Of a DNA stretch of 64,000 nt, positions 5,501 to 40,762 are shown piece after piece (position 1 is the stretch's first letter; every line of letters starts with the position of its first letter). The DNA comes from Bacteroidales bacterium (GTDB lineage: Bacteria > Bacteroidota > Bacteroidia > Bacteroidales > PXBB01): contig JAQVVM010000004.1 in the NCBI GenBank assembly GCA_028698995.1, forward strand, positions 338 to 64,337. The letters run 5' to 3'. Both the position numbers and the translations under genes were made by a program. The notes beneath the pieces were generated by a model. It did not search any database and was not told where the DNA came from. It worked only from the letters and a program-made list of their open reading frames with translations.

Positions 5501-5709
5501 CTACTGTTATACAATAAGTGCCTTCATCAGAAAGTCCGGTTGTATCTATGATATTATATAACAGGCAGAAAGTACCCACAAAACCCGGGGTTGGAATGAA
5601 TGAAAATGTTCCATCTTCAGGTCCCCAGATTAAAGTACCTTGAGAGGCATCAGGTTGCGACCATATAAAGAACTCACAATCATCCACATCGCCATCGGGG
5701 TCGTAATCT
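1..5709 (-). CDS. Giant surface adhesin, downstream part, partial at left edge and in a shifted frame
   Basis: This frame is open from about 5709 to base 1 and continues beyond the window. It carries on the protein begun at 12910 after a one-base shift near 5710. In order on the minus strand I read a cadherin-like/Ig-like pair (about 5780-5250, with ND-x-Y and G-x-x-SFTYEVC-type signatures), four DUF11 repeats (about 5240-3810, each with the VTNxGPSxA and LPxGYTYVS signatures), an Ig-like unit (about 3805-3555), one SprB repeat (about 3555-3310), a GEVED domain (about 3310-2830, with DFGDAPD and AWIDFNADGDW), one HYR-like domain (about 2820-2530), then the 86-residue repeat array. All these are extracellular modules of Bacteroidota adhesins. 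The C-terminus, where a type IX secretion signal would be expected, lies outside the window. The lack of a start here and the unbroken domain logic across the junction are why I treat this as part of the upstream gene. Confidence 0.85.
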
Positions 5710-8700
5710 CCTGTTTAATAGTTCCATTAAGGGTTGTGTTATAAGGGGTGTAAAAGGTGTCATTAACAGCCACAGGAGGCAAACAACTTATAGAACCGAC
5801 AACGCCGCTGTTTGAGGCTGTACAGCCATTAGCGTCCGTAACTGTTACATAGTAAGTACCTAAATCCAGGAGGGAAATTGTCTGAGAAACGCCGCCATTG
5901 CTCCAGTTGTAAGAATAGGGGTAAACACCACCTCCAACTGAAGCTGTAGCAGCTCCATTGGTATAAATACATTCTTTGGGATAAGTAAATACCGTAATAT
6001 CAAGATTGGAAGCTTTTGTTACAGTAATTGATAAGGTTCCTGTACAACTATTGTCATCAGTAACCGTAACAGTATAAACACCTTCGGAGATATTTACAGG
6101 GTCCTGAATATTTCCTATTGCAGTTGGTCCCGACCATGAATACGAGAAGGGAGCTGTTCCGTTGTTAACGGTAAGGTCAATTGAGCCCGTTGCTATACCG
6201 CATGAAGAAGACTCAATAATAGTTGCAAACAATTCGATGGCTGTTGCCGGTTCGGTAATGGTATCACCTGTGGTTGCAGTACACCCTTTAGAGTCTGTGA
6301 CCGTAACAGAATAAATACCCGCAGTAAGATTACTAATATTCTGAGTATTTAGTCCGTTAGACCAGCTGTAGGAATAAGCGGGTGTACCACCGGCAGGTGT
6401 CAAAGAAATACTGCCATCAGTGCCGTCTTTACATGTAACGTTATCACTTGAAGCGCTTACAGTTAATACATCGGGTTGTGTCAATGCCGCTGAGGTAAGC
6501 GTTTTAACACAGGAATTGGCGTCAGTTACTGTAACAGAGTAATTGCCAATAGATAAACCATATATGTCTTCTGTAATTGAATCGTTGGACCAGATAAATG
6601 TGTAAGGCGTAACGCCCCCGTTAACAGTAAGGTTGACCATACCATTGCTGCCGCCGAAGCATGATACATTGGTTTCAATCATAGTAAGAGACATTGCTGA
6701 AGGTTGTGTAATGCTAAAGGAAGCGGTAGCCGAACAGCCATTGTCGTCGGAAACTGTTACTGTATAGTTGCCTGCAACTAATCCGGAGCGGTCTGCTGTG
6801 GTTATGCCACCGCCCCAGTCATAATCGTAGTCAAGGGTTACGGTACCACCGGTAACCGTAATATCAATAGCCCCAGTTGTTGAGGCATTACAAAGCACAT
6901 TTGTAAGAGTGGCATCAATTGTAACAGCCGCAGGCTGGGTAACGGCAGTAGCCGCAATGGCAGTACAACCATTGTCGTCGGTAACAGTAACAGAGTAATT
7001 ACCTGCAGGAATATTGGCAAGGTCTTCTGTTGTTTCGTTGTTTGACCAAAGGAAATCATAATCTATGGTACCTCCGCTTACAGAGAGGTCAATACTGCCC
7101 GTTGAATACCCGTTGCACAATGGTGAAACCGGCGTGGCAGTTGCTGTAAGCTGAGCAGGTTGGGTAATGGTTTTGGATAAAACATCTGAACATCCCAGCG
7201 AATCGGTTACAGTAACAGAATACGAGCCTGAAACAAGACCGGAAATATCTTCTGTGGTAGCTCCGTTACTCCATAAAAAGGTATATCCTGTCAGAAGGCT
7301 TGGTGTGCCTCCACTGACAGTGAGGTTAATACTGCCGTTTGAACCACCGTTGCAATTGATATTGACTTGTGTGGCTGTGAGTAAAATGGCAGCAGAAGGC
7401 TGTCCAACGATGACTGATGATAATACTTTTGTACAACCTTTATTGTCAGTGACTGTAACACTGTATGTGCCTGCATATAAACCGGTAATATCTTTTGTAG
7501 TCGCAGAAAAAACAGGTCCTGACCAGCTATAGGTATAGGGTGACGTGCCTCCGCTTACAGTCAAAACGACTTGCCCGTTTTGTCCTCCATAGCATTTGAC
7601 ATTGGTAATAGCAGGAGTTGCATCGAGAGCTGCTGCCGGCTGTGTAAGTGTGTAGGATTCTGTCAATGTACAGGAGTTTGCATCAGTAATGGTTACTGTA
7701 TATGTGCCTTCTGTTAGACCACTACGGTCTTCAGGATCCGGTGAACCCGGTAAATCAGACCATTGGTATGTAAAGCTGCCTGCACCTCCCGTTACTGTTA
7801 GATTTATAGCTCCTGTAGAGCCGCCATTACAGTTAATATTTGTTTGTGTGCTGTTGACCAGTAAAGCATCTGGTTCCGTTATTGTTGCTGTGGCAAAAGC
7901 CTCACAACCAGCGTCATCTGTAATTGTAACACTATAAGTACCAGCAGATAACGACGAGATAGTGGCACTTGATGATGAATTAGACCATAGTATATCATAA
8001 GGCGCAGTGCCTCCGGAGGGTGTCACGGTAAGAGACCCGTTATTGCCATTTTTACACGAAACATTTGTTTGAGCTGAAATTGTTGCTATTGGACCATCTG
8101 AATTGCTCACGGCAAAGTTAGCTATGGCATAACATCCCGAAGGATTATTAGTAACAGTTACCGTATAGTTGTCAGAAAAAAGATCTGTAATATCTTCGGT
8201 TGTTTCGCTGTTGCTCCATAAGTAAGTTGGGCTGACTCCATCAGTAACGGTAATATTGATGCTGCCGGTATTATTGCCACAGCTTGCAGCAGAAGTAGTT
8301 CCACTTACAGAAGGTGCTGTGCTGACAGTAACATTTACATTGGCTGTGCCTGAGCATCCTTCATTATCGGTAACAGTCACCGTATAGGTAGGTGTGCCTG
8401 CTGAAACATTTAATATGACAGGATTTTGAGTCTGGCTTGTAAAACCTGGCCCAGACCATGCATATGAAACACCTCCGCTGGCATGAAGCTGAAGGTCACC
8501 TCCTGAACATACAGGATCATAAGAAGCCGCTACTGTTGGCGTATGCACATATACATCTTTGCAAACAGGTGGTGTCGTATCACACAGATTTCTGGCTTCA
8601 ACACATACAGAATAGGTTCCCAAGGCAGCTCCTGTCCAGTCAATGACAACAGACGCAGAATCCTGACCTGATACAATAACAGGTCCTGATGGTGATACTG

Positions 8701-11700
8701 TCCAAATATAACCGGTATTAGAAGGATCAGGATTTGTTGAAAATACAGATGTAGCATCAGATTGACATACACTGGTACCTTCACATCCTGAAGGCGCATT
8801 TAGAACAATAGCTCCGGAAGATACAGTACAACCATCGTTATCTGTTATGGTCACTGAATAACTGCCTGCGGCAAGACCTGTTCTGTCCTCAGGGTTGCTT
8901 GTGCCTCCCAAATCTGCCCAGTCATAAGTGAAGGGCGGATTGCCTCCGTTGGCAGTAATGTTGATTGCTCCATCGTATAGAAAACAAGTGGGGTCGGTAG
9001 TGCTGCCTGTTACATCTATACCATTGCATAAGTCCTTTCCAAAACCAAACTCAGAAAACCCACTGAGTCCTGAACGTTTGACTGTAGCTCCTGAAGCAGC
9101 CACATGGGTACCCCATCCGGTATTGGCCCATGCAGAAGCTGCATTGGCACGTTTAAGCAAACGTACACCTGCATCCAAGAGCTGGCTTGAAAAACCGGTT
9201 CCTGTAAGCTCCATGTCGTAATTGGTGCTGGCAAGGCTATTGGCTGCAGAAAAGACCCAATAACCTTCTGTAAAATTTACACCGATATTATAAACGCCAT
9301 CGCTTAAGGGTAATCCGTTTGAACCCGGATTCGAAGCTGTAAAACAACCCGTAAGTGATCCTGAGGTGAGGTCTGTAAAAGTAAGCAGGGCATCCCTGTT
9401 GGCTGTTGAGTTGCCTAAAGCTACAGCTGTACCTATCGGATACCTCTTGGCTCCTGATGTTGTGGTAAGCCATCTTTTGAAACAGCCTATTATACTCCCT
9501 GCGGTGTAATTCAGGGTGCCTTCAGAAGGCGCAGATGTTCCTAATTCTAACAACTGGCTGTTACAATCAATATTTCCTGAAGTCATCGTGAGGACTGACT
9601 CCACAGCAACAGTAGTGGTGCTGCCCTCAATAACCAAATTGGTTTCGCTCTTTGCGACAGTTAAATTGTTGAAGGTTTGTGTCGTTGCTGTACCCTGAAT
9701 ACTCTGGTTGACAGTTGTGTTGTTAAAATTAATGGTGCTTGATGCCCCTGTAAATGTACCGCCATTGTTAATCCAATTGCCCCCCACATTATGCGTAAAG
9801 GAAGAACCATTAAATGTGGTGCCTGCACCGATGTTTACATTTCCGGCAACAGTCATGGCTGCACCTGCTGTGGCTGATGCTGTTCCTGTTAAAGAAAAAT
9901 CACCGGCTATTGTTAAAGCCGTTCCGGGCATCGTCTTAGTGCCACTGCCACTCAATATAAGGTTGTAGTACCCGGCAGGAGAACCATTGGGGTTGATAAC
10001 CGTCTGACCTGCACCATTGTATTCAACAGTGTTTGCAAAAGAATTTGCATTCAGCACACCAGTTCCTGTGAGTGTAAGGGAGCCCCCGATTCTCATAATG
10101 TTGTCCTCCTGAAGTGATAAAGCTGCCCCGTTATCAACGGTAACATTATTGAAATTAGTAGTGCCGGACATGGTGGCTTCTGCATTGTTGAAAAGAACAG
10201 TGCCAGATCCCGGATTAAAGGTGCCTGAATTTGTCCATGCGCCTGATGCGCCGGTTACAGTAAAAGTATTAGACGAACCGTTAAGAATTCCATTGGGTTC
10301 AATATTAATTGTTTTACAAGTAGCTGTTGCAGACAATGTAGGGTCATGTGCCGTAGTACCGGCATCAGGGATTACGACATTGCTGGTATCTGTGGGGACT
10401 GTACCCTGATCCCAATTGGTTCCTGTATCCCAGTTTGTTGTGCCGGCTCCTGCTGTCCAAACCCAATCTATGATTGATTTGTTTGCCAAAGCCCATGTCT
10501 GTGAGTCTTCTGTAGTGGCAAAGTAGCTTGTGCTTATGTTGGACAGGGAAATCCACTTATTGGTTGAGTTTCTGGTCGACTGACCTAATTCAGTAGTTGG
10601 AGGGTTGTCCCAAAAAACCAATCTGTTTGCTGCATTGCCATTAAGTTCCCCATCAAGGTAATGAAGTGTAAGTGTTAAGGTGCCCGACCCACCTGTCTGG
10701 AAAATATCGTAAGTGCGTAAAACAGCGCCAGGCTTCCACGCCGGTGCCACGCCTATAGTTATTTTAAATGTTACATCTGTGGCACCGCCTGAAGCAAAGT
10801 TAATTCTAGTGTATGTGTTGCCAAAAGTGTAGTTTGTTCCTGTTGAAAAAGAGGTCCGTTTAACGTAACCTTCAACATCTCCTATGCCTGTTGTTGTGGC
10901 AGTACTGGCCATTGTAAGTGTATTGGAGCCCATATCAAGGCTTCCTTTTGTTGCAGAGGGATTGGCACTTTGTAGGGATAACACACCATTAACGGTAAAA
11001 TTCTGAGCTGCGGTTACACCACCAGCACCATTAATAGTCAGGTTTTTAACAGTACCAGTGAAAAATGAAGACGGTAAAGTAATGGCGCTGGCGTTTGTAA
11101 ATACCACAGTGGCACTTGTATTGCTTGCATCCACACTGCTGGTTCCTGTGGGTGAGCTGCCGGAAATAGTAAGTGTGTATGCGCCCACCGTAAAATTTCC
11201 GCTGGTCAATGTGAGTAACCCTGTTACATTGGAAGAACGTGCCAGATTAACACCACTTGAATTATTGATGGTAAGGTTGTTAAATGATGTTACTGTGCTG
11301 CCTCCAATAGTTTGAGCAGTACCACTGCCATTCAAGTTGATGGTACTGGTACTGGCCGTAAATGTACCGTTATTCGTAAAGTTTCCTTTGATGTTTTGTG
11401 TGAATGTAGAAGCGGCAAAGGTGCTGCCTGATGCAATAGTAAAGTTACCATTAACTGTGGTGCCAGCACCGGCAGTTAAAGTTTGCCCTGAACTAAGACT
11501 GATATCCACATGACGTAGGCCTCCATTAATAAATTCAGGACCTGTAGTTTTGCTGCTGCATGTATAATAGAGGTCGTAAGTGCCGGTGCCTTGTAAGGTT
11601 CCGGTAATAACGCCATCGCAACGATAAATGGCGGAGTTAGAATTCATTGTGAGGTTTGTGCCGGCTGCTAGAGTCCCATTATTAAGTGTCAACTTACTGC

Positions 11701-12910
11701 CATTATCAATAACCTTGGCGGCACCAACGGTTATTGTTGCTGTGTTTGTTATAACAATACCTCCGGTAGCAGTAAAGGGTGATATCCATTCTTCGGCAGA
11801 AACTGTGCGGTTAGTTGCTGTATTGTACTGAAGTGTTGCATTTGGCCCATATGTGACAACTCCTGTCGTAACCACAACAGTTGCTGTGCCTTCCATTGAA
11901 AGTGTGCCATTAACGGTAGGAGTGGTAGCAAACGTTTTGGCGTTAGACCCCGATAGTGTTAAATTATAATAAGTGGTTACTTTCCCTGTTTGGGTATTGG
12001 TCCTGTTATAGTTTACGGTATTTCCTGTTGCTGTTGCTGTAAGGGTTGTGATTGTTATACCATTCCCGATATTGAGGGTGCTGTTGACTCCTTGTGTTAA
12101 TCCTCCTGTGCCTGCCAAAGAGGTTGTGGCTGTTATAGTGCCGTTATTGGTTAATGTCGTTCCAGTTACTGTCAGTAGGGTAGAAACTGTAAAATCGGCA
12201 CTGTTGGTATACGCTTTTGTAAATGTAGATGTGGGTATGGAAATGGCACTGGTGCCACTGATGGTTTTGCTGACCCCCTGAAAAGTATGTAATCCGGTGT
12301 TGGCTGTAAATGTGCCGTTATTTTCAAGGTTTCCACTGAAAAATATTTTTGAAGCGGTTGATTCATTCCATACACCCCCTGAATTTATGATGACATTTCC
12401 TGTAAACTTTTTATCTTTATTACCTCCCAAATTAAGCGTGCCGGATAATGATGTAGCACCGTTAACAGTAAGTTTCCTGTTTCCGGATATTGTCAGGGTT
12501 GACCCGCTGCCTATAGTAAGGGAGCCACAGGTCATATCTGCTGTATTGGTTAATGTCGCATTTGTAGCGGTACCTATGGTAATTGATGCTAAAGCATTTG
12601 CAGCTACAACACTATATGCAGGTTGCCTTCCCGATGTAAAGGCAACAACACCAATCCTAACAATGTCGCCCGGGTTTGCACCCGGATTTCCGTTAGGGCT
12701 CCAATTGGTAGGAGTTGCCCAGGCTGTACTGGTATTACCAGTCCAGTCATAAACTGTCTGAGCCATAGCACTGCCTGCAAAAAATAAGGCAAGTGTTACC
12801 ACCATTAAAAACTGCATAAAAACTTTTTTGGTGTTTCTAATGCAGTTACCAGAAATTTCAGATGTAAAGGGACAGGCTGATATTTTCATTTTTATGTATA
12901 TTTTTTTCAT
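5630..12910 (-). CDS. Giant secreted adhesin with beta-repeat stalk and SprB repeats (upstream part)
   Basis: This is the N-terminal 2,426 residues of a giant cell-surface protein. Residues 1-51 form an extended export signal with a hydrophobic core ending at SAMAQ. Residues of about 52-830 and 900-1290 are low-complexity beta-strand repeats (NNGTFTA, TVNGTLS and LTISG-like turns), probably a beta-helical stalk; two WTG-x-W-x-x-NW units start these blocks. From about 1300 I count twelve SprB repeats (C-x-G-x3-GSI-x-L-x-V-x-GG ... YSVTVTDxxGC), with an Ig-like section between the first two. SprB repeats are found in the Flavobacterium gliding adhesin SprB and many type IX-secreted proteins. 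The last 25 or so residues after LNGTIKQ are out of frame, and the stop at 5630 is probably an artefact of a one-base deletion near 5710. The start at 12910 keeps basic residues before the signal core; a later Met (codon 8) is possible. Confidence 0.85.
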   Translation of the reverse strand: MKKIYIKMKISACPFTSEISGNCIRNTKKVFMQFLMVVTLALFFAGSAMAQTVYDWTGNTSTAWATPTNWSPNGNPGANPGDIVRIGVVAFTSGRQPAYSVVAANALASITIGTATNATLTNTADMTCGSLTIGSGSTLTISGNRKLTVNGATSLSGTLNLGGNKDKKFTGNVIINSGGVWNESTASKIFFSGNLENNGTFTANTGLHTFQGVSKTISGTSAISIPTSTFTKAYTNSADFTVSTLLTVTGTTLTNNGTITATTSLAGTGGLTQGVNSTLNIGNGITITTLTATATGNTVNYNRTNTQTGKVTTYYNLTLSGSNAKTFATTPTVNGTLSMEGTATVVVTTGVVTYGPNATLQYNTATNRTVSAEEWISPFTATGGIVITNTATITVGAAKVIDNGSKLTLNNGTLAAGTNLTMNSNSAIYRCDGVITGTLQGTGTYDLYYTCSSKTTGPEFINGGLRHVDISLSSGQTLTAGAGTTVNGNFTIASGSTFAASTFTQNIKGNFTNNGTFTASTSTINLNGSGTAQTIGGSTVTSFNNLTINNSSGVNLARSSNVTGLLTLTSGNFTVGAYTLTISGSSPTGTSSVDASNTSATVVFTNASAITLPSSFFTGTVKNLTINGAGGVTAAQNFTVNGVLSLQSANPSATKGSLDMGSNTLTMASTATTTGIGDVEGYVKRTSFSTGTNYTFGNTYTRINFASGGATDVTFKITIGVAPAWKPGAVLRTYDIFQTGGSGTLTLTLHYLDGELNGNAANRLVFWDNPPTTELGQSTRNSTNKWISLSNISTSYFATTEDSQTWALANKSIIDWVWTAGAGTTNWDTGTNWDQGTVPTDTSNVVIPDAGTTAHDPTLSATATCKTINIEPNGILNGSSNTFTVTGASGAWTNSGTFNPGSGTVLFNNAEATMSGTTNFNNVTVDNGAALSLQEDNIMRIGGSLTLTGTGVLNANSFANTVEYNGAGQTVINPNGSPAGYYNLILSGSGTKTMPGTALTIAGDFSLTGTASATAGAAMTVAGNVNIGAGTTFNGSSFTHNVGGNWINNGGTFTGASSTINFNNTTVNQSIQGTATTQTFNNLTVAKSETNLVIEGSTTTVAVESVLTMTSGNIDCNSQLLELGTSAPSEGTLNYTAGSIIGCFKRWLTTTSGAKRYPIGTAVALGNSTANRDALLTFTDLTSGSLTGCFTASNPGSNGLPLSDGVYNIGVNFTEGYWVFSAANSLASTNYDMELTGTGFSSQLLDAGVRLLKRANAASAWANTGWGTHVAASGATVKRSGLSGFSEFGFGKDLCNGIDVTGSTTDPTCFLYDGAINITANGGNPPFTYDWADLGGTSNPEDRTGLAAGSYSVTITDNDGCTVSSGAIVLNAPSGCEGTSVCQSDATSVFSTNPDPSNTGYIWTVSPSGPVIVSGQDSASVVIDWTGAALGTYSVCVEARNLCDTTPPVCKDVYVHTPTVAASYDPVCSGGDLQLHASGGVSYAWSGPGFTSQTQNPVILNVSAGTPTYTVTVTDNEGCSGTANVNVTVSTAPSVSGTTSAASCGNNTGSINITVTDGVSPTYLWSNSETTEDITDLFSDNYTVTVTNNPSGCYAIANFAVSNSDGPIATISAQTNVSCKNGNNGSLTVTPSGGTAPYDILWSNSSSSATISSLSAGTYSVTITDDAGCEAFATATITEPDALLVNSTQTNINCNGGSTGAINLTVTGGAGSFTYQWSDLPGSPDPEDRSGLTEGTYTVTITDANSCTLTESYTLTQPAAALDATPAITNVKCYGGQNGQVVLTVSGGTSPYTYSWSGPVFSATTKDITGLYAGTYSVTVTDNKGCTKVLSSVIVGQPSAAILLTATQVNINCNGGSNGSINLTVSGGTPSLLTGYTFLWSNGATTEDISGLVSGSYSVTVTDSLGCSDVLSKTITQPAQLTATATPVSPLCNGYSTGSIDLSVSGGTIDYDFLWSNNETTEDLANIPAGNYSVTVTDDNGCTAIAATAVTQPAAVTIDATLTNVLCNASTTGAIDITVTGGTVTLDYDYDWGGGITTADRSGLVAGNYTVTVSDDNGCSATASFSITQPSAMSLTMIETNVSCFGGSNGMVNLTVNGGVTPYTFIWSNDSITEDIYGLSIGNYSVTVTDANSCVKTLTSAALTQPDVLTVSASSDNVTCKDGTDGSISLTPAGGTPAYSYSWSNGLNTQNISNLTAGIYSVTVTDSKGCTATTGDTITEPATAIELFATIIESSSCGIATGSIDLTVNNGTAPFSYSWSGPTAIGNIQDPVNISEGVYTVTVTDDNSCTGTLSITVTKASNLDITVFTYPKECIYTNGAATASVGGGVYPYSYNWSNGGVSQTISLLDLGTYYVTVTDANGCTASNSGVVGSISCLPPVAVNDTFYTPYNTTLNGTIKQEITTPMAMWMIVSSLYGRNLMPLKVL

Positions 12911-12955: not shown

Positions 12956-15616
12956 TTAATTATTAATATTTGAAGGAGTTGATGGGTCGCTGTTTGCAGT
13001 ATTAACCACAACAGTAATATTGGCTGTACATCCATTAACATCTGTAACTGTTACAGAATAAGAGCCGTCACCCAGACCGGTGCGGTCTTCTGGGTCAGGT
13101 GAGCCGGGCAGATCGGCCCATGCGTATGTGTATGGTGTTGTGCCACCGTTTACAATTAAGTCTATAACCCCGTCATTGTCGTTGGGACAGGTTTCGGGGA
13201 TTATTGCTGAACTCAGTATCAATGGGGCAGGTTGTGTTACCAGCACAGTGGTTGTTTTTGTACAGTTGTTGGCATCTTTAACCGTAATATTATATGCACT
13301 TGCAGAAGCAGAAACATCGGTAAATTGGTTTGAGAGTTGGTAGGTACCTCCGTTGAGGCTGTACTGCAGAGGGGCTGTGCCACCAGATGCAGTTACAGTG
13401 ATAGTCGTTGTACCACTGTTGCACAACACGGGATTAGGAGTGGCAGAAGCTGATGCAGTGATGGCTGTTGGCTGTGTAACAGAGATGTTGCTAAGTACTT
13501 GCGTACAGAAATTTGCATCTGTAACGGTTACCGTGTAATTACCTGCAGCTAAGCCCGTGCGGTTCTGGGAGGTAGGGCCATCTGCCCATGCATAAGTGTA
13601 TGCACCTGTGCCGCCAACGACATCTAAATTAATAGCGCCGGTTGTGTTTCCATTGCACAAAACAGGGGTTACAGAAGGTGTAATGACAATTCCATTGGGT
13701 TGAGTTATGGTGGCCTGCGCTGTTGAGGTACAGGCTTTACTGTCGGTAACAGTCACCGTATAAGTGCCGGCGGCAAGTCCTGTTCGGTTTTGTGTGGTGG
13801 GTCCGTCAGCCCATGAATAAGTGTAAGCGGGTATTCCTCCGGATGGAGAGAGGGTAATGCTACCAGTGCTTATTCCGTTACAAAGCAGGTTTGTCGGGAT
13901 TGTTGAGACAGATAGCTGAGGATTTTCGGTAATTGTGGCTGTAAAAGTTTTGACACAGCCCGTTCCATTATCAGCAATAAGTGTAACCGTGTAGTTACCG
14001 GGAGCAAGCCCGGTAATAGTTGTTCCTGTGCCATTGTCGGAGCCTCCTCCGTCCTTAATCCAACTCCACTTATAAGGTGCAGGACCGCCAATAATGTTGG
14101 TTATTGTTATTTTGCCGTTATTTAATCCATAGCAAGAAGGTGACACGGTTGCAGTAAGTTTTAGGTTGCAGAATATCTGAACAAAAGTGGAGTTTTTATA
14201 AACTCTTTGACAAATTGATTTTTCAGTTAATTTAATAGTAATGGTACAATAAGTTTGAGAACTTACCTGAGGTGCAACATAGAGTACACTCTGAGCATTG
14301 TTGGGGATAAAAGTGCCACCGCAGGAGGATGTCCAAATAATATCAAATTCCTGAATGTTGCGTGGAGGTGAAACTGTAAAAGACAAGGGGACAGTATCTG
14401 CTGAAGAAATGTTGCCAAGATTGACGTTAAAACCTGGATCAGGAGCAGTAGTTCTTGCTGCAATAAGAGAGAAGTTGAAAAAAGCACGTTGTGCGGCTAC
14501 ATTCGCAGGGGCTGTACTTTTAGCAAGCTGATGTGAAGCTTCAAGCATTACCATGCCACGGTTTGAAATGCCATAAGCATGACCATAAGCAATGATTGCA
14601 GCCTTGTATTTGTAATCATTTGAAAGATTATAGCGTTGAGGATGGTCAGGGTCGAAGCAGCTCACAACCGTAGTAGGCCTCCAGCCTCCACTTGTGGGTA
14701 TGTAAATTTGTTCTGAGCCATTAAGTACGGCATTATCCAAAGGCCCCATAAATTGCATTACGGGATCACCGCCATTATCATAGGTATAGGGAGGTGTTCC
14801 GGCACTATGGTTTGTCCAAAGCAAAAGGCCATTTTGATAGTAGGGGCCAGGTGCAATACCAGGAGGTACTGCCTGCATACTTTTTTCTGTAAGGAAATTG
14901 GTCTGTTGGCTTGGGTCTGCGGGGTTAAACATATCTTCGAGTGCACTGCCAGCGTGGCAACCGAGCCAGATGGCCCCACGACAGCTATCGTTCCATGTCA
15001 TAAGGTTTGAATGTGTTGCCCAAGTTGGATCGGCATGGGGCATAATAAAGATATCGTCGCAACAGGTGAGTTCTGAGGGGAGTTTCCATAATGCTGTGTT
15101 AGAACCACCATAAGCAGATGGAGGAATACCGGCATTGGCAAAGTAGGGCACTGCCAGAGAACCATTTTGTTTATCCATTGTCCATCGGGGTGCATTGCTT
15201 ACAGTGAGGGTTTTAAACACCTTTAGCCAGAGGGGAGATGTTGTTGTTACTGTTACAACACCTTGTGGTATCCATGTGGCTATTTCGTCAATAACATCCT
15301 GTGTAAGGTACTGTGCCGGAATTATAAACGGGCCTCCTTTAAAATCATAGCCATTGTACGTAAAGTCCACACCATCTTTAGCTTTTGATGGTTCAATTAC
15401 CCAGCTTACCGGTACCGCATGATCCATGGTGAGGTGGTAAACCATTCCATAGGGTTTAAGGGCATTACCAATTGTTTGGGGTACAATTCCCATATCAATA
15501 ATTACAGAGCCGGCAGGAAATAAAGTTGAATCCTGAGTCTGTGAAAAAGAGGTTTTGCACATAGATAATAAAGCCATTAAAAAAATAATGGGGGTTGTTC
15601 TTTTAAAAGTATTCAT
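12956..15616 (-). CDS. Secreted protein with unrecognised N-terminal domain and five SprB repeats
   Basis: This 886-residue protein starts at the ATG at 15616, because the sequence from there gives a clean signal peptide (basic MNTFKR, hydrophobic core, cut after TSFSQ). An upstream in-frame ATG at 15709 would bury it. Residues of about 30-400 form a domain I cannot name. Its most striking parts are MPHADPTWATHSN (192-204), GAIWLGCHAGSALE (214-227), YGHAYG (344-349) and MLEASHQLA (357-365). Five SprB-type repeats follow to the end. The protein stops right after the last repeat, with no recognisable type IX C-terminal signal. It lies 45 bp upstream of the giant adhesin gene on the same strand, so the two are probably co-transcribed and may act together at the surface. 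Cys220 in a small-residue turn plus conserved His and Glu suggests an enzyme, but that is inference. Confidence 0.85.
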   Translation of the reverse strand: MNTFKRTTPIIFLMALLSMCKTSFSQTQDSTLFPAGSVIIDMGIVPQTIGNALKPYGMVYHLTMDHAVPVSWVIEPSKAKDGVDFTYNGYDFKGGPFIIPAQYLTQDVIDEIATWIPQGVVTVTTTSPLWLKVFKTLTVSNAPRWTMDKQNGSLAVPYFANAGIPPSAYGGSNTALWKLPSELTCCDDIFIMPHADPTWATHSNLMTWNDSCRGAIWLGCHAGSALEDMFNPADPSQQTNFLTEKSMQAVPPGIAPGPYYQNGLLLWTNHSAGTPPYTYDNGGDPVMQFMGPLDNAVLNGSEQIYIPTSGGWRPTTVVSCFDPDHPQRYNLSNDYKYKAAIIAYGHAYGISNRGMVMLEASHQLAKSTAPANVAAQRAFFNFSLIAARTTAPDPGFNVNLGNISSADTVPLSFTVSPPRNIQEFDIIWTSSCGGTFIPNNAQSVLYVAPQVSSQTYCTITIKLTEKSICQRVYKNSTFVQIFCNLKLTATVSPSCYGLNNGKITITNIIGGPAPYKWSWIKDGGGSDNGTGTTITGLAPGNYTVTLIADNGTGCVKTFTATITENPQLSVSTIPTNLLCNGISTGSITLSPSGGIPAYTYSWADGPTTQNRTGLAAGTYTVTVTDSKACTSTAQATITQPNGIVITPSVTPVLCNGNTTGAINLDVVGGTGAYTYAWADGPTSQNRTGLAAGNYTVTVTDANFCTQVLSNISVTQPTAITASASATPNPVLCNSGTTTITVTASGGTAPLQYSLNGGTYQLSNQFTDVSASASAYNITVKDANNCTKTTTVLVTQPAPLILSSAIIPETCPNDNDGVIDLIVNGGTTPYTYAWADLPGSPDPEDRTGLGDGSYSVTVTDVNGCTANITVVVNTANSDPSTPSNINN

Positions 15617-15724
15617 AAGGTTAGATTTTATGAAGGTGATGTTTTTTTTATTTATAATAAAAAGAAATAACTGAGAGTGTGCCAAATAACTGTGTGTTTG
15701 CCAGGACATAATATTTTTAACTTA

Positions 15725-17170: not shown

Positions 17171-17205
17171 AAAAAAAAGGTTTCAATTTTTAAAAACCTG
17201 AAACC
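17171..17205 (-). terminator. Rho-independent terminator, possibly the original one of tRNA-Val
   Basis: On the minus strand an inverted repeat GGTTTCA ... TGAAACC is followed by a run of eight T. It lies just past the outermost truncated tRNA copy (17220). It may be the terminator that once followed tRNA-Val before the two tandem units were inserted. Confidence 0.6.
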
Positions 17206-17299
17206 CTTTTCTGATGTGGTGGGAGTTACTGGATTCGTTCCGATAACAATCGGAACAGTGACCCCCATACTTGCAGACTGAATGGTCTTAACAAACAAA

Positions 17300-17549
17300 T
17301 CATTTACAAACAAGCTTTTCTAATATCTTGCGACTTTCCCATTTTTTATTTTGGTTCTTGCATTTTAGTGCATCTGTTTTACTTTCAAATTCTTCTAAAT
17401 ATAATACTCCCCAGTAAATTCAGAGGTAGTTTCGAAAGTCTTTGTGTTAGGAATGATGATGTCTTATTGGTCGTTTATGCATCTCCCGTGAAGCCCTTAT
17501 GATACATGCCACATTGCTTGCTGTAAAGAAAACAAACTGGATTTTTCAT
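17300..17549 (-). pseudogene. Decayed GIY-YIG endonuclease gene, copy A
   Basis: From the ATG at 17549 the frame reads MKNPVCFLYSK, resembling the first GIY-YIG strand, then YHKGFTGDA and a stop. The middle of the domain is deleted. In another frame near the end it reads LEEFESKTDALKCKNQ and KKWESRKILEKLV, which matches the C-terminal pattern of small single-domain GIY-YIG proteins (E-x-F-x-x-K-x-E-A-L-x-x-E-K-x-I-K-x-W-K-S-R-K). It has at least one in-frame stop, one frameshift and one deletion, so it cannot make a nuclease. Confidence 0.75.
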
Positions 17550-17550
17550 A

Positions 17551-17583
17551 AAAAAAAGAGGAGTATTAATTTACCCCTCTTTT
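17551..17583 (-). terminator. Terminator hairpin, copy in unit A
   Basis: On the minus strand, AAAGAGG-type arms around an A/T-rich loop are followed by a run of T. It is the same sequence as the terminator just after the functional tRNA-Val, carried along by the 365-bp duplication. Confidence 0.65.
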
Positions 17584-17665
17584 GTGGGAGTTACTGGATT
17601 CGTTCCGATAGCAATCGGAACAGTGACCCCCCATACTTGCAGACTGAACGGTCTTAACAAACAAA

Positions 17666-17915
17666 TCATTTATAAACAAGCTTTTCTAATATCTTGCGAC
17701 TTTCCCATTTTTTATTTTGGTTCTTGCATTTTAGTGCATCTGTTTTACTTTCAAATTCTTCTAAATATAATGTTCCCCAGTCAATTCAGAGGTAGTTTCG
17801 AAAGTCTTTGTGTTAGGAATGATGATGTCTTATTGGTCGTTTATGCATCTCCCGTGAAGCCCTTATGATACATGCCACATTGCTTGCTGTAAAGAAAACA
17901 AACTGGATTTTTCAT
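17666..17915 (-). pseudogene. Decayed GIY-YIG endonuclease gene, copy B
   Basis: It has the same reading as copy A: a start at 17915, FLYSK, YHKGFTGDA then a stop, and in another frame EEFESKTDALK and KKWESRKILEKLV ending before TGA at 17666. Copies A and B share the same lesions, so decay came before the duplication. Confidence 0.75.
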
Positions 17916-17949
17916 AAAAAAAAGAGGAGTATTAATTTACCCCTCTTTT
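17915..17949 (-). terminator. Terminator after tRNA-Val
   Basis: On the minus strand an inverted repeat with arms AAAGAGG/CCTCTTT and an A/T loop, followed by eight T, begins immediately after the 3' end of tRNA-Val. Confidence 0.75.
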
Positions 17950-17950
17950 G

Positions 17951-18025
17951 TGGGAGTTACTGGATTCGAACCAGTGACCCCCTGCTTGTAAGGCAGGTGC
18001 TCTGAACCAACTGAGCTAAACTCCC
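17951..18025 (-). tRNA. tRNA-Val (anticodon TAC)
   Basis: This 75-nt cloverleaf on the minus strand has acceptor GGGAGTT pairing with AACTCCC, D-arm GCTCAGTTGGTTCAGAGC, anticodon stem CCTGC/GCAGG with loop CTTACAA (anticodon TAC), a T-arm with GGTTCGAATCC, and discriminator A. CCA is not encoded. Two damaged copies of its 3' part lie downstream in tandem. Confidence 0.96.
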
Positions 18026-39052: not shown

Positions 39053-39496
39053 TCAGGAACCGAATTCATCAGAAAGCTTGTTTTCCTCAATCTTCTTTTT
39101 TCTTCTTTCACGCAATGCCCAGAAAAATGTTCCCGGAATTATAATTAGAGAAGGCAATGTAGATTCAAAGGGCTGTGGAGTTCCTTTCAGATTGTGCAAC
39201 CCAAAAACAAGCAGTATTGTAACTATTGAAGGAATCAGCGTGGCAGTGGTAATAGCTTTTGCTTTCGAGGGAATAGTATTTGCAAAATACTCACAACTTC
39301 TGATTACAATACCGCCGAAAAAAAACGTATAAACCCATTGTTTTAAAGCTGCTGTAAAAGCAGGAGTAAAAGTCCCCACAGCTTCGTAGTTGATGTAAAA
39401 AACAGCACTGCCCATCAAAAAAGCACCTGCAAGTCCCATTTTAAAATTGATAAAACGGCTGAAAAATTTAAGGATTTTTGATGGGTTTTTAGTCAA
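39053..39496 (-). CDS. Membrane protein of unknown function
   Basis: This 147-residue protein is not recognised. About four hydrophobic segments are seen (about 19-37, 51-69, 80-98 and 110-126), with a basic/acidic tail (RERRKKKIEENKLSDE) likely in the cytoplasm. It lies 12 bp downstream of umuC on the same strand and may be part of that transcript, although nothing in the sequence ties it to DNA repair. Confidence 0.7.
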   Translation of the reverse strand: MTKNPSKILKFFSRFINFKMGLAGAFLMGSAVFYINYEAVGTFTPAFTAALKQWVYTFFFGGIVIRSCEYFANTIPSKAKAITTATLIPSIVTILLVFGLHNLKGTPQPFESTLPSLIIIPGTFFWALRERRKKKIEENKLSDEFGS

Positions 39497-39508
39497 TGGT
39501 TTAATCTA

Positions 39509-40762
39509 TTAATAAACATGAGGTATGTCGCTCAGTCGCGTTGAATAACAAGGTGATAATTTCTCCTGATGCATTTTCCAAGCTTTGCTGTATCCCTGAG
39601 CCAGAATCCTTACTTTATCCCTACCGTATTTAGCATTTAGGTCGTCCACAACATCCATTACAGCTTTTGTTTTTTCGTCGGCGACGGGGTAAAATAAATT
39701 CCCCTGAACACTGTTTGATGGTATGATTTCGACCATGATAACACCCGCCTTTTTGTAGGCATAGCCTTCTTTAAAAATTTTGGTAAGACCGTATATGGCA
39801 TATTTTATAAGCTCAGGAGTATAGTTGGTTGCATGTGGTAGTGGAACTACAATACTGCGGGCATATTGGGGTAAATCTTTACGGTGAAAATTAGTATGCA
39901 AAAACACCATGATAGCTGCTGCACAAGATTTCTGCCGCCTTAATTTTTCGGCACATCTGGCAGCAAAACTGGCTACTGCTTCTTGCAGCTGCTCCACATC
40001 ACCAATCATTTTACCAAAACTACGGGCAGTACAGATATTTTTTTTGGCAGGAATATCATTTTCAAGGGTATAACAAGGTATCCCCTTGAGTTCTTTGAGT
40101 AAACGCTGACCCATAACCGTCATGTGCTTTCTTATCCATGACTCAGGCTGACATGTAAAATCATAAGCTGTTAATATGTTATGCTTACGAAGAAATGCCG
40201 CATAACGTCTTCCGATACCCCATACATCTTCAATGTCAAGCTTTTTAAGAGCATTTGTTATGCTTTCTTCATCGTTCAGGATGCAATAAAATTTACCACT
40301 TTTCTTGGCTGTTTTATTGGCGGCTTTTGCCAGTGTTTTGGTGGGCGCAATTCCCAAACTTAAAGGAATGCCCGTGTTTTTCCTGACTGTTTTTGTGATT
40401 TTTTCGGCATACGCTTCAAGGTTGTAATGTTCGAACCCATCTAAGCTAAGAAAAGCTTCATCAATGGAATAAATTTCCATATCGGGAACAAACTCAGCCA
40501 GCGTGTTCATCACCCTGTTTGACATATCTCCGTAAAGGGTAAAATTTGTGGAAAACACAGCTACTTGATGTTTCTTGACAATATCTTTAATTTGATAAAC
40601 CGGTACACCCATGGCTATATTTAGTGCTTTAGCCTCATTGCTGCGTGCAATCACACATCCGTCATTATTCGATAAAACAACAACTGCCTTCTTTTCGAGT
40701 GAAGGGTTAAAAACCCTTTCACACGAAGCATAAAAGTTATTGCAATCGGCCAATGCAAACAT
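39509..40762 (-). CDS. umuC: DNA polymerase V catalytic subunit UmuC (Y-family)
   Basis: This 417-residue protein is normal length. The Y-family marks are [18 protein letters not shown] (first metal-binding Asp and the steric-gate region), [19 protein letters not shown], and [11 protein letters not shown] with the SIDE catalytic carboxylates. After these come the thumb/helix-hairpin-helix section ([18 protein letters not shown]) and the little-finger domain ([10 protein letters not shown]). It copies damaged DNA together with processed UmuD. It starts two bases after the umuD stop, so the two are co-translated. Confidence 0.96.

Follow-up and report, generated by a model that had tools for sequence, protein, structure and literature searches.

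Directly behind the functional tRNA-Val gene of this Bacteroidales genome stand two nearly identical units of 365 and 366 bp, each ending in a damaged copy of part of the same tRNA. The question is what kind of element they are and how the tRNA gene remained whole next to them. The locus lies within the window, by which we mean the whole 64,000-nucleotide stretch of DNA that was analysed, and comprises the following features:

17950..18025, minus strand: functional tRNA-Val(TAC) (ARAGORN; sole 100% copy in the genome)
17916..17949, minus strand: terminator directly 3' of tRNA-Val, repeated in both units (sequence and repeat analysis)
17584..17949, minus strand: inner unit, 366 bp, made of terminator, nuclease wreck and tRNA tail (sequence and repeats)
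17666..17915, minus strand: decayed GIY-YIG nuclease gene of the inner unit, with an N-terminal piece, an unreadable middle (stop and frameshifts) and a C-terminal piece at 17669-17785 (translations; kin profile, E 1.6e-8)
17584..17632, minus strand: inner pseudo-tRNA tail, made of tRNA-Val nt 44-54, a palindrome and nt 58-76 (tRNA fragment matches)
17602..17621, no strand: palindrome of the inner tail (GTTCCGATAGCAATCGGAAC), in the T arm (sequence)
17219..17583, minus strand: outer unit, 365 bp, 98% identical over a 300-nt core and a 48-nt tail (sequence and repeats)
17300..17549, minus strand: decayed GIY-YIG nuclease gene of the outer unit, C-terminal piece at 17303-17419, lesions as in the inner copy (kin profile, E 2.8e-8)
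17219..17267, minus strand: outer pseudo-tRNA tail, built like the inner one (tRNA fragment matches)
17237..17256, no strand: palindrome of the outer tail (GTTCCGATAACAATCGGAAC) (sequence)
17171..17205, minus strand: different terminator behind the outermost tail (sequence)

A search of the 4.47-Mb genome for copies of tRNA-Val returned only one 100% match, the next best being 82%, from which we infer that loss of the gene would probably be lethal to the host. The units appear as direct repeats of 300 nt (98%, spacing 366) and 48 nt (98%, spacing 365), and each carries the terminator AAAGAGGGG...CTCCTCTTTTTT. On the minus strand, each tail reads GGGGGTCACTG-TTCCGATTGYTATCGGAA-CGAATCCAGTAACTCCCAC, and the word GTGGGAGTTACTGGATTCG, which corresponds to tRNA nt 58-76, is present three times, at 17219, 17584 and 17950. 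A first-pass annotation had described tandem units behind a functional tRNA, a hairpin with an 8-bp stem and a different terminator after the outermost copy. ARAGORN and the repeat analysis confirmed the arrangement, the stem reaches 8 bp when the flanking G-C pair is counted, and the outermost terminator does differ from the tRNA terminator, which recurs after the inner unit. The annotation was also right that the tail ends in the real tRNA 3' end, but the shared stretch measures 19 nt and not 18. The terminator at 17171-17205 is presumably the tRNA's original one; a different terminator behind the outermost tail was also found at four other loci (L084, L090, L091, L106). A DNA search of 60 relatives with the window unit yielded nothing beyond matches of 20-43 nt, and the unit itself is therefore private to its own genome. 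Using synteny with the rRNA methyltransferase gene ksgA, we found no empty site for this locus, and tRNA-Val/Asn adjoins ksgA in no relative compared.

The gene within the units had been assigned to the GIY-YIG nucleases by eye. A search of the remnant against PF01541 and the rest of Pfam, with the pieces as well as a read-through translation, gave no match; the assignment rests instead on a kin profile made from 42 intact tRNA-linked nucleases. When the 2460 open stretches in the 64-kb window were all searched with this profile, the two C-terminal pieces ranked first (E 1.6e-8 and 2.8e-8), followed by a next match of 0.13, and the N-terminal pieces ranked fourth and fifth, correctly spaced upstream of the C-terminal ones. 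The best pairwise matches of the remnant are nucleases at other tRNA-Val loci (L084, L091). In the alignment of intact relatives, Y6, Y17, G19, R27 and E63 are invariant, so that the catalytic Tyr/Tyr/Arg/Glu set is kept. The window copies have a lysine in the catalytic Glu column and an unreadable middle third, which includes the Arg, and are therefore dead. As both units (17219-17949) have their lesions in common, a dead unit must have been duplicated, or homogenised, after the nuclease had decayed.

Intact relatives exist in the same genome. PF01541 detected small intact GIY-YIG genes directly 3' of tRNA-Phe and tRNA-Pro and directly 5' of tRNA-Arg(CCT), with E-values of 2.3e-15 at the Phe locus (L002) and 1.2e-15 at the Arg locus (L001), both above the curated cut-off. 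The Phe locus (L002/L140) has a 374-bp unit with one intact and one broken copy, the Pro locus (L004/L139) two identical copies, and the Arg locus (L001/L141) is of the 5' type. A partial tRNA with a palindrome in one arm borders every one of these intact genes: CTCCGATAGCTATCGGAG lies in the T-loop of the partial tRNA-Phe and CCTGCCTGCCGGCAAGCAGG in the D-arm of the partial tRNA-Arg, and the partial tRNA-Pro has a hairpin in the D-loop and another in the T-loop.

The same association extends through the order. From 119 genomes, we fetched 99 non-UvrC GIY-YIG loci, and 54 of them adjoin a tRNA or, in one case, a tmRNA, on the same strand and typically 30-60 bp away; at about 45 tRNA genes per genome, we estimate the chance expectation to be well under 1%. 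Two forms occur. The 3' form (L067, L084, L090, L091, L106, L126, L135) runs from the tRNA through terminator, nuclease, short tRNA piece, palindrome and displaced 3' half to the next unit or a different terminator. The 5' form at tRNA-Arg (L060, L086, L087, L100, L133, L141) consists of tRNA nt 1-22, the 20-mer CCTGCCTGCCGGCAGGCAGG, a few tRNA nucleotides, the nuclease and the functional tRNA; at L087, a bare 20-mer also sits at nt 22/23 of a complete tRNA-Arg. Palindrome-bearing pseudo-halves flank the functional tRNA on both sides at L084 and L106, as expected for an insertion mid-way in an older tRNA. Arrays of two to three units are found at L091 (3 x 354 bp), L129 (3 x 371), L114, L109, L100, L131 and L229. 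The nuclease frame often ends within the tRNA piece, within the palindrome or at the TAG of the next tRNA, which makes the unit extremely compact. Where units were read over their whole length, only the nuclease ORF fits into them; neither an integrase gene nor an HUH tyrosine transposase (RAYT) is present, and the unit is complete at about 350-600 bp.

The first-pass annotation had proposed that intact nucleases abutting tRNAs in the same order should be looked for, and many genomes have them. Both of the conditions that it had named as refuting were put to the test, lack of GIY-YIG similarity and units mostly remote from tRNA genes, and neither overturned it. Its suggestion that the element brings a replacement tRNA half was met even symmetrically, with the tRNA-Arg elements carrying a replacement 5' half. 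The hairpin that it saw in place of the T-loop is real, but it is no peculiarity of that loop; a hairpin replacing the anticodon arm, the T-loop or the D-loop is a constant feature. Two tandem GIY-YIG genes directly 3' of the tmRNA (L117, 989-2047) indicate that tmRNA is a target as well. Tandem pseudo-tRNA 5' halves without a nuclease, with a palindrome in the anticodon arm, were seen upstream of functional tRNAs at L129 (5 x 77 bp), L106 (2 x 83 bp), L099 (repeats of about 120 bp) and L109; at L106, the end of the repeated unit could pair with the acceptor strand.

A scan of a collection of 84,980 species, with the alignment of the Val type as query, returned 453 relatives, of which the best 79 were examined. 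In these 79, a tRNA lies upstream in 62 (43 Val, 14 Arg-TCT, 2 Met, 3 pseudo), within 130 bp in 47 and further up, mostly behind tandem copies, in 15; of the remaining loci, 11 begin at a contig end, and the tails of the other 6 are recognisable as tRNA fragments. Their hosts belong to the Bacteroidales, Flavobacteriales, Cytophagales, Sphingobacteriales and Chitinophagales. Since isolates (Chryseobacterium, Flavobacterium, Algoriphagus, Belliella) and a complete genome (Marivirga arenosa) are among the carriers, the arrays are not merely artefacts of metagenome assembly. Only two related viral contigs were found. Clear elements of the Bacteroidota type are also present in two metagenome records (L224, L243) whose titles give Bifidobacterium breve and Streptomyces griseus, organism names that look wrong.

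The displaced tRNA half 3' of the nuclease gene has a hairpin that interrupts one arm (anticodon, T or D) or substitutes for it. An unanchored search for perfect stems of 6 or more pairs detected one in 64 of the 79 tails, compared to 5.5% of shuffled tails. The outer stem TCCCG/CGGGA is nearly fixed, and the inner pairs covary (GAC/GTC, GAT/ATC, GCC/GGC, GGC/GCC). This suggests that the hairpin's sequence is important as well as its pairing, or else that the mechanism renews it.

We further compared nucleases by target and by site. In a tree of 51 nucleases, the tRNA label changes 19 times, compared to a mean of 34.9 after shuffling, and none of 200 shuffles was as low. All eight Val nucleases group together on one branch, as do seven of the ten Asn nucleases on a starred one. 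Because the tree has few columns, we place no trust in its finer branches; nearly every sampled genome comes from a different family. Nuclease phylogeny follows tRNA identity, and judged from sequence alone, the nuclease may be specific for the site that it occupies. At the tRNA-Ser-Pro-Arg(TCT) cluster of 30 Chryseobacterium species, 5 have an intact nuclease, 3 a decayed one, 4 only a tail with hairpin or relic, 17 are empty and 1 has only another tRNA copy, which meets the criterion of presence and absence at one site among close relatives that applies to homing endonuclease genes. These genes go through a known cycle of gain, tandem growth, decay and loss. The intact Chryseobacterium nucleases have a median dN/dS of 0.08, and purifying selection on the nuclease is strong.

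With moderate confidence, we regard the window units as dead members of a group of selfish elements, widespread in Bacteroidota, that enter tRNA genes in the manner of homing endonucleases and reconstitute their target. The architecture in both orientations, the tRNA-specific nuclease clades, the tandem copies, the patchy presence with decay and the purifying selection are observed, whereas cleavage, homing and the role of the hairpin are inferred. The reading of the first-pass annotation is supported, but its homing-type nuclease aimed at the tRNA gene is an inference from the target-specific phylogeny and the patchy distribution.

An intact unit of the 3' type comprises the 3' half of its target tRNA, a terminator, a stand-alone GIY-YIG nuclease gene of 80-100 aa, a short copy of the tRNA preceding the junction, and the palindrome. 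It lies inside the tRNA gene, in the D, anticodon or T arm, and its own 3' half continues the resident 5' half, which keeps the tRNA functional; the 3' half that was there before is displaced outwards, the palindrome replacing an arm. The 5' type at tRNA-Arg is the mirror image, with palindrome, nuclease, promoter and replacement 5' half. In the mechanism that we propose, the nuclease would be specific for one tRNA gene and cleave copies of that gene that lack the element, at the arm or close to it. A homologue that carries the element, sharing tRNA sequence on either side of the break, could then serve as template for recombinational repair, which would install nuclease and replacement half together or, alternatively, multiply the unit in tandem. 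The palindrome might abolish or mark the cut site in the displaced half, or be the structure that the nuclease recognises. After fixation, the nuclease would decay and the tail persist, and the window would represent this late stage, duplicated after death.

The homing reading has a weak point. The displaced half carries the hairpin and the rebuilt tRNA is intact; the latter retains the target sequence, so that, unlike with an intron, the cut site is not obviously destroyed. For the donor to be immune, the recognised site would have to be longer or self-cutting weak, and weak cutting of the donor allele is typical for free-standing GIY-YIG enzymes (PMC13096335). Moreover, the conservation of the palindrome sequence, namely the TCCCG outer stem and the 20-mer of the tRNA-Arg elements, exceeds what the destruction of a site needs. 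Some sites have the palindrome but no nuclease (L148, L192, L144-L146), the window locus lacks a known empty site, and there are no cleavage or mobility data.

In a rival explanation that we judge rather unlikely, the hairpin is the moving part and the GIY-YIG protein a hairpin-processing nuclease that mobilises palindromes, as RAYT transposases do REPs. Genes for tRNAs would then be targeted because their arms form hairpins, and only insertions into duplicated tRNA halves would persist. Tails in which two or even three arms hold a palindrome (L112, L103, L114, L130, L132, L139, L059) fit this explanation, as do the tRNA-Arg 20-mer in nuclease-free tRNA-Leu and other 5' halves and in REP hairpins (L148, L147, L149, L186, L192), other GIY-YIG groups amid clusters of REP-like palindromes (L142, L051, L054, L069, L061, L056) and the match of the nuclease profile to the structure-specific nuclease SLX1. 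However, the exact 20-mer is found at only 12 places in the 119 genomes of the order, half of them tRNA-Arg nuclease loci, and is no prolific repeat there. Nor does mobility of the hairpin alone account for the carried terminator, the replacement tRNA half and the tRNA-specific nuclease clades.

The idea that the palindromes are high-copy dispersed repeats was rejected for this order on the count of the 20-mer and on that of TCCCGAT...ATCGGGA, which occurs only four times in the genome of the window. The 16-mer of the window-tail palindrome was found at 20 places in that genome, the tails included (up to 2 mismatches; control 0). The tail palindrome TCCGATAGCTATCGGA recurs there at non-tRNA sites (C77:25989, C87:14971, C92:210, C91:20759, C50:34523, C94:20583, C114:1377), several of which adjoin the word GGTCTGCTGA or a variant; these are perhaps a second, unrelated family of insertion sites. 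The nuclease-free tRNA-Leu carrying the tRNA-Arg 20-mer is tRNA-Leu(GAG), and one genome (G126) has 12 copies of the 20-mer in REP hairpins.

A module that is useful or addictive to the host, in which the GIY-YIG protein has tRNA or invading DNA as its substrate and the tRNA half with its hairpin tag serves as decoy or regulator, would accommodate the strong purifying selection and the short, weak matches to candidate-defence models of PADLOC. We consider it improbable: the PADLOC matches span only about 30 residues of the catalytic domain, presence is patchy, decay frequent and sites empty within one genus, the tails lack the other tRNA half, and left-hand and right-hand forms both exist.

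The comparison with known systems bears on a further alternative. A duplicated tRNA 3' end is what classically marks an att site, and these loci have such duplicates; the units could be remnants of ordinary tRNA-integrating islands, left by tyrosine recombinases, in which a GIY-YIG gene hitch-hiked. In such integrative elements, too, a carried half rebuilds the target and the displaced 3' end forms a direct repeat. Our units, in contrast, have no recombinase, measure about 350-600 bp with the nuclease as sole gene, stand in tandem identical copies, join the tRNA at a hairpin in the D, anticodon or T arm, and also exist in 5' versions, so that very little speaks for this origin. Chance, that is tandem tRNA debris with a misread ORF, can draw only on the broken state of the window copies and is refuted by profile E-values of 1e-8 and dozens of intact copies in the same order.

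Returning to the homing reading, a close parallel is offered by the free-standing (intronless) GIY-YIG homing endonucleases of T-even phages. One of these, SegB, is encoded beside phage tRNA genes, cleaves within the tRNA region and stimulates segmental (tandem) amplification of the tRNA together with the nuclease gene (PMC13096335). The tandem copies of our units are consistent with such amplification, and both nucleases are stand-alone enzymes adjoining tRNA genes. SegB, however, lies beside whole phage tRNA genes, whereas the units here lie inside bacterial chromosomal ones and have a replacement half and a junction palindrome. Group I introns in tRNA anticodon loops likewise combine an insertion in the anticodon arm with a GIY-YIG nuclease, but in our units tRNA function is kept by duplication and not by splicing; by eye, we saw no intron structure in them, the functional tRNA being uninterrupted and the insert only a hairpin. 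REP/RAYT systems (REPtrons, REPINs) also tie a nuclease-type gene to palindromes; they use an HUH tyrosine transposase where the units have GIY-YIG, and the palindromes of the units are bound to specific tRNA arms. The closest solved relatives of the element nuclease by sequence profile are small GIY-YIG proteins of the UPF0213/URI type and SLX1 (PDB 1zg2, 1ywl, 7cq2). To our knowledge, these are stand-alone or repair proteins and have not been described as tRNA-linked.

We found no published description of tRNA-linked GIY-YIG units in the open-access literature. The components, GIY-YIG homing enzymes and tRNA-rebuilding integration, are known; the combination is new as far as open-access papers show. 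If the homing reading is true, the units represent a very small autonomous DNA parasite of about 350 bp, aimed at essential tRNA genes, which survives because it rebuilds them from either end. It is present throughout the phylum and divides into separate clades for Val, Arg, Asn, Met, His, Pro, Phe and other tRNAs, even tmRNA. It would also account for the joint occurrence of tRNA fragments and small "GIY-YIG nuclease family proteins" in Bacteroidota genomes.

A related matter concerns the REPs themselves. Clusters of REP-like palindromes, for example TGTCATTTCGAGCGCAGCGAGAAATCT or TCATTCCGCATCATGTGCGGAATCT, surround other GIY-YIG groups (VLYIGVTND...; GSTN...QVQGW...) at the six loci named above and at L120, L123 and L127; L142 is a gene of this kind in genome G000 (C30, about 39470-40411 of the contig). 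CGTC-tagged REPs have no dedicated transposase (PMC3733652), and the REP-embedded GIY-YIG genes are candidates for the missing role; related genes inside such repeats thus bear on the open question of how these REPs are mobilised. It is possible, although we put this forward only tentatively, that the small GIY-YIG nucleases of Bacteroidota form a general, previously unnoticed class of palindrome mobilisers, in which clades differ in the hairpins that they are associated with, be these tRNA arms, CGTC/TGTC-tagged repeats or other REP-like ones. They might then play the part that RAYT transposases have for GTAG REPs, with tRNA genes as one target family that is rebuilt so that the host lives.

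Elsewhere in the window, two very long repetitive secreted proteins are encoded at 5630-12910 (2426 aa) and 12956-15709 (917 aa), with repeats that, judged by eye, resemble those of SprB (VSGGTxPYTYxWSNG...).
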